A stretch of 45,113 bases of DNA from Sulfurimonas sp. (lineage in GTDB: Bacteria; Campylobacterota; Campylobacteria; Campylobacterales; Sulfurimonadaceae): NCBI GenBank assembly GCA_027013295.1, contig JALUXP010000093.1, positions 1 to 45,113 on the forward strand. Reading direction: 5' to 3'. Positions 1 to 5,431 of this stretch are shown here, in pieces. A program made the translations under genes and the position numbers. Each line of letters starts with the position of its first letter. Position 1 is the stretch's first letter. The notes below the pieces were generated by a model that worked only from the letters and a program-made list of their open reading frames with translations, was not told the DNA's origin and made no database searches.

Positions 1-1188
1 CAAACTCATCACAGCGAGTAAAAGAAGTAAATTTGCAATAAGAGCAATATTTGCGATCACTCCAGCCATACGGTAATACACCATCATAAAGAGTATAACC
101 AATACAAATCCACCAACAAGAGCGATTAATGATGCTTTTATGGAGTCAGCACCCAAGCTAGGACCTACTGAGCGTTTTTCCATCATATATACAGGTGCAA
201 GAAGTGCCCCTGAACGAAGGGCTATGGCTAAGTCTTTTGCTTCAACTACCGAGTAGTTTCCAGATATCTGTCCACTACCACCACCAATACGCTCATTGAT
301 ATTTGGAGCAGAATAGACCTTGCCATCTAAAACAATAGCGAGTCTTTTACCCACATTTCTACCAGTAAAATCACCAAATATCTCTGCACCCTCTGCATTG
401 AGTTTAAAGTTTATTTGAGGACGATTATTTTGATCAAAACCAACATACGCATCCGTCAGCATAGCACCATCTAAAACAGGGATCTCTTTAATAAGATATT
501 TCCTCTGTGGATTCGTTGCATCTTCAAGTATAACATCGCCTAAAGCTGCCGCTTCGCTTTCACTCATCACACTGACACGAGCCGCTCTCTCTTCATCTAC
601 AGCCATCATCTCAAGTTTTGCCGCACGAGAGATAAGTTCTCTTGCGCGTTGTTCTTCTTCTTGAGTTTTGATACCCGCTAACTGAACGAGAATCTTATCT
701 TTACCTTGTTTAGCAACAACAGGCTCAGTTAAACCAAACTGGTCAAGTCTATTTCGTATAGTCTCTATAGCTTGGTTGATAGCTTCTTTTTTTGTTTTTT
801 CAATCTCTTTTGGAGTAAGTGCTAACGAAAAAGATTCCCCTTTAACTACAAGTTTCAAACCTTCGAGTTTTCCAAGGTACTCTTTCACTTGTTTTACATC
901 ATCAGAATCAAGCACTTCAAAAGAGATACCCTCTGCATTAAAACTTAATGCATCAATTAAAATATCATGTTTATTTGTAAAATACTTAATGCTTGCAGCT
1001 ATAGACTTGATGCGAGATACTGTAGCTTCCTCAGTTTTAACACCAAGGAGCATATGAAGACCACCTTGCAAATCTAAACCTAAAGTAACTTTTTTTCCAT
1101 CTTGAGTATTTAGAAGTGATGGTATAGAAAAAAATATCCCAAAGACAATAGCTATTGCAAATATTACAATACGATAATTAAGCTTCAT
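1..1188 (-). CDS. secD: Protein translocase subunit SecD (3' end outside window)
   Basis: SecD is the inner-membrane Sec accessory subunit that, with SecF, uses the proton motive force to help pull exported proteins across the membrane. Reading the minus strand from the ATG at 1188 gives 396 codons without a stop, running off the left edge. An N-terminal membrane segment is followed by the family motif LGLDLQGGLHM, then the periplasmic P1 region, and near the edge the start of the C-terminal membrane bundle (GPSLGADSIKAS followed by hydrophobic segments). The start lies inside the last codons of yajC (11-nt overlap), so the two are translated from one message. secF is expected just beyond the left edge. 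The identification is secure; only the C-terminus is unseen. Confidence 0.96.
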   Translation of the reverse strand, partial: MKLNYRIVIFAIAIVFGIFFSIPSLLNTQDGKKVTLGLDLQGGLHMLLGVKTEEATVSRIKSIAASIKYFTNKHDILIDALSFNAEGISFEVLDSDDVKQVKEYLGKLEGLKLVVKGESFSLALTPKEIEKTKKEAINQAIETIRNRLDQFGLTEPVVAKQGKDKILVQLAGIKTQEEEQRARELISRAAKLEMMAVDEERAARVSVMSESEAAALGDVILEDATNPQRKYLIKEIPVLDGAMLTDAYVGFDQNNRPQINFKLNAEGAEIFGDFTGRNVGKRLAIVLDGKVYSAPNINERIGGGSGQISGNYSVVEAKDLAIALRSGALLAPVYMMEKRSVGPSLGADSIKASLIALVGGFVLVILFMMVYYRMAGVIANIALIANLLLLLAVMSL

Positions 1189-1444
1189 CCTCATACTTTC
1201 TAGCGATAGCATCTTTAACGATTTTTACAATTGTATCATCGTTTACTTTTACGCTTAAAAAACTTTCTTCGACTTTATGAACAACGACAACAAAACCACC
1301 TGTAGTAACAAGTTTATCTCCCTTTTTGAGAGCCTCTATCATCACTTTTTTCTTTTTTGCCTCTTTTTGTTGCGGGCTAATAATCACAAAATACATAATT
1401 GCTATTAAAAATATAAACGGCAACAATTGACTAATAATCTCCAT
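1178..1444 (-). CDS. yajC: Preprotein translocase subunit YajC
   Basis: YajC is a small single-span membrane protein that associates with SecDF. I start it at the ATG at 1444 (88 aa, MEIISQLLPFIFL...) because an AAGGA ribosome site lies just upstream; a longer reading from 1531 would add 29 residues without support. One membrane segment (about residues 5-25) precedes the family signature IISPQQKEAKKKK and a small soluble domain with KKGDKLVTTGG. It overlaps secD by 11 nt, so translational coupling is likely. A TATAAT-type box at 1475-1480 on the minus strand probably drives the operon. Confidence 0.94.
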   Translation of the reverse strand: MEIISQLLPFIFLIAIMYFVIISPQQKEAKKKKVMIEALKKGDKLVTTGGFVVVVHKVEESFLSVKVNDDTIVKIVKDAIARKYEDEA

Positions 1445-1480: not shown

Positions 1481-1587
1481 CAGAAATATTTCTAATATTA
1501 CGATAAAAGTATCTTTTAAGTAGTTATTCACAAGAGATTTGCTATTGTGTTAGACTTTAAATCAAAAAACAACAGGTAGGCTATAGT

Positions 1588-4188
1588 TTGAAAACAATCA
1601 ATCATCTTTTTTCTTCTAAAAATCAATTTGAAACTTTCCTAGTACAACAAAAATTTGATCTGGTGAAAGAGTGTTTTATTCAAGTATTTATTGGTCACAA
1701 CGACCAACAAAAACTACGCAATACACTGAGCATTATCTCTGAAGTTTTACCAAACGCTTCTATTATCGCTACCTCTACTGCTGGAGAGATTATTGATGGT
1801 GGTATGACAGAAAATACTATTGTAGTTTCCATCACTACATTTGAAGCCACCAAAGTCAAACTCAAACTCATCGAAGGTGACTCTGAAGAGGCTATGGCTA
1901 AAGAGATACTCTCTAGCATGGTTACATCAAAAACAAAACTCATTTTAATGTTCAACAATGTTTATGCAAATGATGCAGAGATTCTCATAGAGAGTCTTCA
2001 AGAGGAGCTTCTTAACATCAAAATCGCTGGTGGAAATGCTGGGGACAATGGAGAATTTTCCTTCTCATCTGTAGTTGGCATCAACAAAGAGGTCTCCACA
2101 ACAGCAGTTGCCGTCGCTACATTTGACTCTGATCTCTTGCAAGTGCACAACGAATACCTGTTCAACTGGGATACAATCGGTGAGGCAATGACTATTACTC
2201 GTGCTGATAAAAATATTGTTTACGAGATCAATCATCAAAAGGTCGTTGATATTTATAGAAAATTTTTAGGGGATGAAGTTGTTGAGAACCTACCTCTCTC
2301 TGGAGTAGAGTTTCCATTGATTTTCAATAAAGACAATATCGACATCGCCCGTGCACCAGTTGCTCTAGGTGAAGATGGCTCCCTTGTAATGGCAGGGCAT
2401 ATAGAAGAGGGAACTACTGTAAGATTTGGATTTGGTGATCTTTCTAAAAATGATGCCTGTACCATAAACAAGGTAGCATCGTTTGCCAAAAACCCTATAG
2501 AGAGTATCTTTATTTATTCTTGTTCAGCAAGAAAATATTTTTTACAAGACCATCTAAACAATGAGTTTGAGATGCTCCAGCAGATAGCACCAACTGCTGG
2601 TTTCATAACATATGGAGAGTTTTTTAAAAAGAACAGATGCAACAAACTCCTCAATGTATCTTCAACTTTCATAGGTCTTAGTGAAACAAGCAAACATAAT
2701 CATAAAGTAGAACTTAAACGAAAAGTTACATCACCTGCGACAAAAACACTCAATGCTCTTACACATCTCATCAAAGTAACCTCAAAAAATCTAGACCAAC
2801 AAAACAACCGCCTCCAGCAGTTTAAACATCTCATTAAAGAGTCCACACTCTATTCAAGTACAGATCTCAAAGGTACAATCACTAATGTCAATAAACAATT
2901 TGAAGAGCTATCTGGCTACACAAGAGATGAACTCATCGGCAAAAATCACAATATAGTGCGGCATGAGGATATGCCAGCTCAAGTATATAAAGAGATGTGG
3001 CAAACAATTCAAGATAAAAAAAGTTGGCAAGGCATCATAAAAAATAAAAGTAAAAATGGCAAAGCCTACTATGTGCGTTCCAATATTTACCCTATACTTG
3101 ATGCAGATTCCAACATTGTAGAGTATCTTTCTATTCGTGATGACATCACTAAAGAGATACAAAAGCAAGAGCAACTTGAGGGTTCTTTATATACCTTAAA
3201 AGAGAAAACTAAGGAAAAAGAGTATCTTCTTAGCCAATATGAAAAGATTATCAATCTAAGTAGTGCCTTTTTTCGTATGGATTCTGAGTATAAAATACTC
3301 TATGTTAACGATGTCTTTTGTGACATCTATTACTGTAGTAACAAAAAAATGCAAGAAAAAAAACTCTCTGAGATCTTAGACTCAGATTTTTTTACAACAC
3401 ACTTCCAATCTATTAACGATGAGATGAAATCTAATGGCACATGGCATGGGGTAGTCCCTTTTAAACGCGAAGATGGCTCCATCATCCACATGAGCACCTC
3501 AGCCAATACCATCTATGACAAAAACAATAAACTGATAGAAATTATGGTAGTCCTTCATGATATTACAGACCTTATCACTGCACAAAAAGAGATAGAAGAC
3601 ACACAAAAAGATGTTGTTTTTACTATGGGTTCCATAGGGGAAACGAGAAGCAAAGAGACAGGTAACCATGTAAAACGAGTAGCCGAATACTCTTACATCC
3701 TTGCACTTGCTTATGGACTCAGCGAAGAAGATGCTCAACTGCTTAAAATGGCAAGTCCAATGCATGACATAGGGAAGGTTGGCATCCCTGATGCTATTTT
3801 AAATAAGCCAGGCAAGCTCACAGATGATGAATGGAAAATCATGAAAACACATGCAGCACTTGGGTATCAGATGCTCAAAAATTCTAAAAGAGAGATTCTC
3901 CAAGCTGCTGCAATAGTCTCTCATACCCATCATGAACAATGGGATGGAAATGGTTACCCAAAAAAGCTCAAAGGGGAAGGTATCCATATCTATGGACGGA
4001 TTACCGCGATTGCCGATGTTTTTGATGCACTAGGAAGTGATAGATGTTACAAAAAAGCTTGGGAGGATGAAAAGATATTTGAACTTCTTAAAGATGGCTC
4101 TGGTAAACATTTTGACCCAAAACTCGTTGAGATCTTTTTTAAGCATTTAGATAGTTTTTTAGAAATTCGATCAAAATTCATAGATTAG
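1588..4188 (+). CDS. FIST-PAS-PAS-HD-GYP sensor, predicted c-di-GMP phosphodiesterase
   Basis: This 866-aa protein starts at a TTG (no ATG fits the conserved start of the FIST domain). Domains in order: FIST_N about 30-215 and FIST_C about 220-365, a proposed small-ligand sensor; a short helical linker; PAS1 about 405-525 (contains GYTRDELIGKNHNIVRHEDMP, an Aer-like PAS signature); a coiled linker; PAS2 about 545-665; and HD-GYP about 670-855. The HD-GYP motifs are intact: HDIGKVGIPD at 726-735 and GYP at 789-791, so the c-di-GMP hydrolase is probably active. There is no membrane segment, so it should be cytoplasmic. lnt starts 4 nt after its stop, suggesting co-transcription; yajC is divergent. 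The ligand is unknown. FIST domains more often accompany chemoreceptors or histidine kinases. Confidence 0.9.
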   Translation: MKTINHLFSSKNQFETFLVQQKFDLVKECFIQVFIGHNDQQKLRNTLSIISEVLPNASIIATSTAGEIIDGGMTENTIVVSITTFEATKVKLKLIEGDSEEAMAKEILSSMVTSKTKLILMFNNVYANDAEILIESLQEELLNIKIAGGNAGDNGEFSFSSVVGINKEVSTTAVAVATFDSDLLQVHNEYLFNWDTIGEAMTITRADKNIVYEINHQKVVDIYRKFLGDEVVENLPLSGVEFPLIFNKDNIDIARAPVALGEDGSLVMAGHIEEGTTVRFGFGDLSKNDACTINKVASFAKNPIESIFIYSCSARKYFLQDHLNNEFEMLQQIAPTAGFITYGEFFKKNRCNKLLNVSSTFIGLSETSKHNHKVELKRKVTSPATKTLNALTHLIKVTSKNLDQQNNRLQQFKHLIKESTLYSSTDLKGTITNVNKQFEELSGYTRDELIGKNHNIVRHEDMPAQVYKEMWQTIQDKKSWQGIIKNKSKNGKAYYVRSNIYPILDADSNIVEYLSIRDDITKEIQKQEQLEGSLYTLKEKTKEKEYLLSQYEKIINLSSAFFRMDSEYKILYVNDVFCDIYYCSNKKMQEKKLSEILDSDFFTTHFQSINDEMKSNGTWHGVVPFKREDGSIIHMSTSANTIYDKNNKLIEIMVVLHDITDLITAQKEIEDTQKDVVFTMGSIGETRSKETGNHVKRVAEYSYILALAYGLSEEDAQLLKMASPMHDIGKVGIPDAILNKPGKLTDDEWKIMKTHAALGYQMLKNSKREILQAAAIVSHTHHEQWDGNGYPKKLKGEGIHIYGRITAIADVFDALGSDRCYKKAWEDEKIFELLKDGSGKHFDPKLVEIFFKHLDSFLEIRSKFID

Positions 4189-4192
4189 TCCT

Positions 4193-5431
4193 ATGTCTGT
4201 AAGTAACATATTGCAAAATAAGCAACTTCGTAGAGATATAGTTTATGGACTCACTACTGCCCTTTTGTTTAGTGCTTTCATCTATTTTGAGCATTATTTA
4301 ACAACCATAAAATTACTCAATACTTTTTTTGCTCTTCTTGCAATAGGTGGTTTTTTATATATCCCAAAGCGTGCTGTTTTAGTAGCAGGTTTTTTTATTG
4401 GTCTCTTTTGGTTTTACTGGGTAGGCTATAGTTTTGAGTACAATGGTGTTGGCTTCATGGCACCTATCATCACCTTTTTATTCTGCATCATATGTATGCT
4501 GTTTTTTGGGATACTCGCACTTACAAACAAAGTCTATCTCCGTGCACTCTTACTCTTTGCTTTGAGCTATGTTGCACCCTTTGATTGGAACTGGTTGCAG
4601 ATAGAACTTGTATTTATTGAGAGTTATATCGGCATCATGAAATACCAACTTATCATAGTTCTCACTGCCCTCACTTTACCAAAATATATAAACAACAAAT
4701 ACAAATTCACCCCTCTCTTTCTCATCATCTTTGCTTCAAACTTGATGCCCTATGCACAAACAACACAAAAACTCGCCCCTCTTAAGATAAAGCTTGTAGC
4801 TACAGATATAAAACAAGAGCTAAAATGGAAAAGAGAAACATTTAACCCTACAGTAAATATGACATTTGTAGAGATAAAAAAAGCAATACAAGACAACTAT
4901 GATGTTATAGTTTTTCCTGAATCTGTTTATCCTATCTTTATGAATAAATATCCTATGCTGCTAGATACACTCAAAAAAGCTTCAAAAAAGATTACTATTG
5001 TGGCAGGTGCTCTTGTTGCAGAGGGCAAGAACCACTACAATGTTACCTATATCTTTAACGATGGAAAATCTCAATTTGCCAAAAAACTTGTACTTGTCCC
5101 ATTTGGAGAGTACATCCCACTTCCAAAATTTGCACAAGAGTTCATAAATAAAACTTTTTTCGGCGGTGCATCTGACTTTAAAACTGCTAGTAAACCAACT
5201 GATTTTATCATAAAAGGGATCAAGTTTCGCAACGCTATCTGCTATGAAGCTACCTGCGATGAGATATATCAGGATGCACCTGATTTTGTCATAGCATCTA
5301 GTAATAATGCTTGGTTCACTCCATCAATAGAACCAACACTGCAGAATCTTTTAATGCGTTACTATGCACGCAAATACGGTGTGAGCATCTATCATAGTGC
5401 AAATTATAGGGGCACTGGAATCGTCCAGTAA
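4193..5431 (+). CDS. lnt: Apolipoprotein N-acyltransferase
   Basis: Lnt adds the third acyl chain to the N-terminal cysteine of lipoproteins in the inner membrane. The N-terminal half has several membrane segments; the C-terminal half is a nitrilase-like domain with the expected triad: Glu243 in FPES, Lys298 in KLVLVPFGEY and Cys350 in ICYE. At 412 aa it is about 100 residues shorter than the E. coli enzyme, which is usual in this phylum. It begins 4 nt after the HD-GYP gene. The window encodes several lipoproteins it would process (13865, 16659, 29434). It is convergent with the chemoreceptor gene. Confidence 0.93.
   Translation: MSVSNILQNKQLRRDIVYGLTTALLFSAFIYFEHYLTTIKLLNTFFALLAIGGFLYIPKRAVLVAGFFIGLFWFYWVGYSFEYNGVGFMAPIITFLFCIICMLFFGILALTNKVYLRALLLFALSYVAPFDWNWLQIELVFIESYIGIMKYQLIIVLTALTLPKYINNKYKFTPLFLIIFASNLMPYAQTTQKLAPLKIKLVATDIKQELKWKRETFNPTVNMTFVEIKKAIQDNYDVIVFPESVYPIFMNKYPMLLDTLKKASKKITIVAGALVAEGKNHYNVTYIFNDGKSQFAKKLVLVPFGEYIPLPKFAQEFINKTFFGGASDFKTASKPTDFIIKGIKFRNAICYEATCDEIYQDAPDFVIASSNNAWFTPSIEPTLQNLLMRYYARKYGVSIYHSANYRGTGIVQ

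Follow-up and report, generated by a model that had tools for sequence, protein, structure and literature searches.

In the FIST proteins characterised so far, heme or NO has been the reported signal (PMC12570481, PMC8846402). NosP proteins detect NO through FIST-bound heme, and the c-di-GMP enzymes that they act on include an HD-GYP response regulator (PMC12570481). In CdpA of Vibrio cholerae, which carries FIST together with EAL, the phosphodiesterase is inhibited by heme (PMC8846402). The human FIST protein FBXO22 has a reactive C326 with an adjacent E362 (PMC13316043), and is related in fold to cyclic-amide hydrolases and chorismatases (PMC11185555). On the output side, the eight metal ligands of the HD-GYP site were defined in PmGH, the GAF-HD-GYP protein of Persephonella marina (4mcw; PMC4159591). 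Its D183 alanine mutant has lost activity; the D183/K225 pair is required in PmGH (PMC4159591), and is not family-defining for HD-GYP in general.

The window, a stretch of 45,113 nucleotides from a Sulfurimonas sp. genome, carries a gene for a protein with FIST, two PAS and HD-GYP domains, located between yajC and lnt. Like CdpA, this FIST protein joins a FIST-FIST_C sensor and a c-di-GMP phosphodiesterase domain in a single chain, but its output is an HD-GYP behind two PAS domains instead of an EAL. In the NosP-NosK-NosR system of Burkholderia pseudomallei (PMC12570481) the FIST signal also ends on an HD-GYP protein. There, the lone FIST protein NosP signals via a histidine kinase and the HD-GYP of NosR is degenerate, whereas here sensor and intact HD-GYP share one chain. 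With a probability of roughly three in four, we read the gene as encoding an accessory cytosolic c-di-GMP phosphodiesterase of a Sulfurimonas-group bacterium, gated by FIST and by a flavin/redox PAS, and belonging to a roaming lineage that was inserted before lnt. The features of the locus are:

1178 to 1444, minus strand: yajC, host gene flanking the insertion (TIGR00739)
1445 to 1587, no strand: remaining yajC-side intergenic region, with the yajC Shine-Dalgarno and -10 block (CTTCCTT...GATTATAC...TAATA) shared with relatives
1527 to 1556, plus strand: sigma-70-like promoter TTCACA, 18 nt, TG-TAGACT, 5' of the FIST gene (9/12 match, weak)
1574 to 1580, plus strand: Shine-Dalgarno-like AGGTAGG (direct sequence reading)
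1588 to 4188, plus strand: FIST-PAS-PAS-HD-GYP protein, 866 aa, TTG start (ORF, Pfam, start shared with homologues)
1675 to 2238, plus strand: FIST_N domain, aa 30-217 (Pfam PF08495)
2248 to 2625, plus strand: FIST_C domain, aa 221-346 (Pfam PF10442)
2857 to 3150, plus strand: PAS 1, aa 424-521, aerotaxis-receptor (Aer) type, candidate for FAD binding (Pfam; 8dik, 5.9e-29)
3256 to 3570, plus strand: PAS 2, aa about 557-661 (Pfam)
3649 to 4125, plus strand: HD-GYP domain, aa 688-846, E-T-G subtype, eight metal ligands kept (Pfam, PmGH alignment)
4193 to 5431, plus strand: lnt for apolipoprotein N-acyltransferase, host gene flanking the insertion (NF008934, 480 bits)

The gene is real and its product is soluble. 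The ORF has 866 codons, of which TTG is the first. The TTG start is supported by AGGTAGG 7 nt upstream and by homologues that begin at the matching residue (MQTFNHLFSS, MKTFNYFYSN). Only 4 nt separate the stop codon from the start of lnt (ATG at 4193), on the same strand. Both the start and this spacing had been predicted originally, and were confirmed. On the other side, yajC and secD lie on the minus strand. The NCBIfam profiles identified yajC with 88.8 bits and lnt with a score above the cut-off. No foreign base composition was seen, the G + C content of the FIST gene (0.35-0.38) being similar to that of its neighbours.

The Pfam search of the full protein returned the predicted order FIST_N-FIST_C-PAS-PAS-HD-GYP, with all domains well over their cut-offs. 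FIST_N had an E-value of 3e-34 (119 bits, cut-off 23.2), FIST_C of 3.1e-22 (79.6 bits, cut-off 28.5) and the HD_5 match at aa 688-846 of 8.5e-31. The protein is thus a clean, intact example of the FIST-PAS-PAS-HD-GYP type.

The fold of the FIST module (model of window positions 1588-2730) was predicted confidently, with a pLDDT of 94.6. The fold search ranked the FIST domain of FBXO22 first; cyclic-amide hydrolases and chorismatases came next, with low TM-scores. FBXO22 was retrieved by the fold search only; by sequence search against the PDB there was no FIST match up to an E-value of 10. Three residues, C312, R315 and E344, were invariant across 33 FIST domains, and C312 and E344 may be the counterparts of C326 and E362 in FBXO22.

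Amino acids had been proposed as an example of the small molecules sensed by this module; amino acid sensing found no support, the reported FIST signals being NO or heme (PMC12570481, PMC8846402). The protein could be an NO/heme sensor proper, a one-piece NosP-NosR used in nitrate respiration, in which NO controls the phosphodiesterase through a heme-binding FIST. This would agree with the heme/NO binding of NosP and its action on c-di-GMP enzymes, an HD-GYP response regulator among them (PMC12570481), with the heme response of CdpA (PMC8846402), with the presence of NapA in the same genome, and with one orthologue that lies on the napA strand, 325 bp upstream of that gene. However, the NosP profile (NCBIfam NF041558) scored 46.3 bits with the whole protein and 49.5 with FIST alone, far below the cut-off of 450, and membership in the NosP family was rejected. 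Further, Leu355 occupies the position at which standalone FIST proteins carry a C-terminal histidine (in HNQTMT), a residue that may or may not be the heme ligand, and leucine is found there in 66/84 FIST domains of the set. NapA was a neighbour at only one of five loci. We therefore consider a dedicated NO/heme sensor unlikely, though the most serious of the alternatives weighed here.

The standalone FIST proteins (~380 aa; L158, L159, L161, L164, L166 and others) made up a separate clade and carry HNQTMT close to the C-terminus. Two of them, scored against the NosP profile, reached 53-77 bits, below the cut-off. From these scores, they may be divergent NO/heme sensors.

The first PAS domain resembled the PAS of the Aer aerotaxis receptor (8dik). 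The HNxVRHxDMP region was kept as HNIVRHEDMP, and MW was also aligned. By analogy with Aer, PAS1 is likely a flavin-based sensor of redox or oxygen. Aer is a chemoreceptor, whereas the FIST protein has HD-GYP as its output. PAS2 had no close relative among solved structures.

The HD-GYP part aligned to PmGH without internal gaps, and all eight metal ligands were kept (E690, H694, H726, D727, H755, H781, H782 and D810). The equivalents of PmGH K225 (K730), D308, R314 and K317 (roles from PMC4159591) and the GYP residues were also present. PmGH, an active phosphodiesterase of the same E-T carboxylate subtype, was the best solved relative (1.5e-63). The two proteins differ in their sensors, GAF in PmGH, and in the D183 position, which is Ser688 in the FIST protein and serine also in the related HD-GYP sequences that were listed. 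The intact metal site makes a working enzyme likely, and in agreement with the original prediction of an intact c-di-GMP hydrolase the protein is probably an active c-di-GMP phosphodiesterase. Alternatively, the domain could be a degenerate HD-GYP working by protein contact, as a regulatory pseudo-enzyme, or could prefer another cyclic dinucleotide, e.g., cGAMP. Such a role would fit the replacement of a residue essential in PmGH, and the second-best solved relative was a 3'3'-cGAMP phosphodiesterase. The latter scored far below PmGH, and the complete set of eight metal ligands, the residues matching K225 and D308, the GYP residues and the E-T-G subtype all speak against this alternative, which appears improbable.

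To see how common such proteins are, we surveyed 159 non-identical FIST proteins, from the relatives and from named genome matches. Their outputs were histidine kinase (51), EAL (51), GGDEF (15) and HD-GYP (13), with FIST alone in 15 and other or cut proteins making up the remaining 14. FIST was hence linked to a c-di-GMP turnover domain in 79 of them. In the 60 genomes described below there were eight FIST-HD-GYP proteins, distributed over seven genomes, including the one studied here. In a quick maximum-likelihood tree of FIST, with many open forks, 12 of the 13 HD-GYP-linked domains grouped in a single clade (SH-aLRT 98), which also contained one kinase-linked row and whose sister clade was linked mostly to GGDEF. 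The remaining HD-GYP-linked domain (G058), which has no PAS, arose separately within a kinase group; this placement and the HD-GYP clade are on supported branches. The counts and the tree pattern show that FIST-HD-GYP is a recurrent minority type. A rare pairing, as it was first described, was therefore rejected, all the more because FIST with HD-GYP had been noted in a 2022 review (PMC8846402). Proteins of the FIST-PAS-PAS-HD-GYP type are already known and recur in related species.

The closest FIST sequences came from four Sulfurimonas MAGs (L169, which is the same locus as L107/G019, L170, L171 and L172), with 50-62% FIST identity and the same architecture. The L170 orthologue had an early end within HD-GYP. 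More distant proteins with equal domain order (~34-36% FIST identity) were found in further Campylobacterota (L202, L233, G002, G030, G052). All of these genes lie elsewhere than between yajC and lnt. Other than NapA, the neighbours of the orthologues were named by reading the sequences. They were glnS and napA at L107/L169, a D-alanyl-D-alanine carboxypeptidase and a response regulator at another locus, truD and a restriction-enzyme-like gene at a third, and a histidine kinase/leuA region and glnA at the fourth. In L107 (8471-11227 and 5312-8146), the FIST-PAS-PAS-HD-GYP gene and napA share a strand, with 325 bp between them and the FIST gene upstream. At 80/80 named FIST loci, yajC, lnt and secD were absent within up to 6 kb. 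The four mutually different loci point toward an accessory gene with no fixed place in the genome, and toward one roaming clade of FIST-PAS-PAS-HD-GYP proteins in Campylobacterota. By this comparison the lnt neighbourhood looks accidental, and the position beside lnt says little about function.

For the junction itself we compared 60 genomes: the one carrying the window, 36 of the same genus, and 23 of the same order from 21 further families. Excluding the genome under study, one without a match and one with a weak partial match, lnt was present in 57 relatives. In 45 of these, from many families of the order, the site was empty, yajC and lnt being divergent neighbours roughly 5-200 bp apart. 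Among the other 12, lnt was cut by the contig end in four (G014, G016, G033, G054), was without yajC in the DNA read in seven (G008, G036, G037, G040, G043, G049, G059), and was separated from yajC by a different 3.3-kb insertion in one (G026). A FIST gene upstream of lnt was found in 0/53 relatives with readable DNA there, so that within the set the predicted insertion is unique to this genome.

The different insertion belongs to another species of the genus (L090, 4183-7519). Besides a histidine kinase-receiver protein it contains two small ORFs, for which there were no Pfam matches, and a TACAAT close to the lnt start is retained.

An arrangement seen in no other genome, in an assembly of 134 contigs, could be an artefact, with the FIST gene misjoined to yajC-lnt. 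The continuity of the yajC-side intergenic block with that of the relatives, the gapless 4 nt between the stop and the lnt start, and a G + C content like that of the surroundings make this very unlikely. We give equally little credence to a functional module with lnt, in which the protein would report the envelope or lipoprotein state and co-regulate lipoprotein maturation. The same strand, the 4-nt gap and the weakness of the relatives' lnt-proximal promoter box at this site would be in line with it. Against it, the orthologues are located away from lnt, no relative has the arrangement, and the Pfam search found no known envelope-sensing domain in the protein. A conserved lnt link was thus rejected, and the proposed tie of the FIST protein to lipoprotein maturation is not supported.

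The other part of that proposal, co-expression with lnt, is plausible. In many relatives (e.g., L042, L055, L060, L094) the divergent promoters are conserved and TA[TC]AAT precedes the lnt ATG by 5-7 nt, suggesting that the lnt transcript is leaderless. In the window, what is left at this place is a weak TAGATT that overlaps the stop codon of the FIST gene and lies 6 nt from the lnt start. Its presence speaks against a joint transcript; its weakness makes joint transcription of the FIST gene and lnt plausible, in this species only. The promoter 5' of the FIST gene (1527-1556) is possibly the former lnt promoter, as by eye it resembles the lnt promoter block of the relatives; it is weak, sigma-70-like sites in the region being no more numerous than in shuffles. 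We regard it as a long shot that the insertion has captured lnt expression, such that in this species the capacity for lipoprotein acylation is transcribed with a redox/ligand-sensing c-di-GMP phosphodiesterase.

In the mechanism that we propose for the accessory phosphodiesterase, a small ligand or cofactor would bind the N-terminal FIST, heme/NO being the reported kind (PMC12570481, PMC8846402). The Aer-like PAS1 would hold a flavin and sense the redox or oxygen state. The signal would be relayed by PAS2 and helical linkers to an HD-GYP dimer, whose cleavage of c-di-GMP would move cells between surface-attached and motile life. As the insertion would have placed the FIST gene downstream of the lnt promoter region and ahead of lnt, lnt is probably on the shared transcript. 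Having sensor and enzyme in one chain, FIST-HD-GYP proteins could serve as a compact test system for the ligands of output-fused FIST domains.

FIST was found once in this genome, and HD-GYP paralogues were many. The closest were eight further HD-GYP domains, 58-69% identical to that of the FIST gene, which points to an expansion of a single HD-GYP type in this genome. Examples of the paralogues are G000:C6:4085-4693, C123:3488-4120, C61:10663-11304 and C89:1632-2246.
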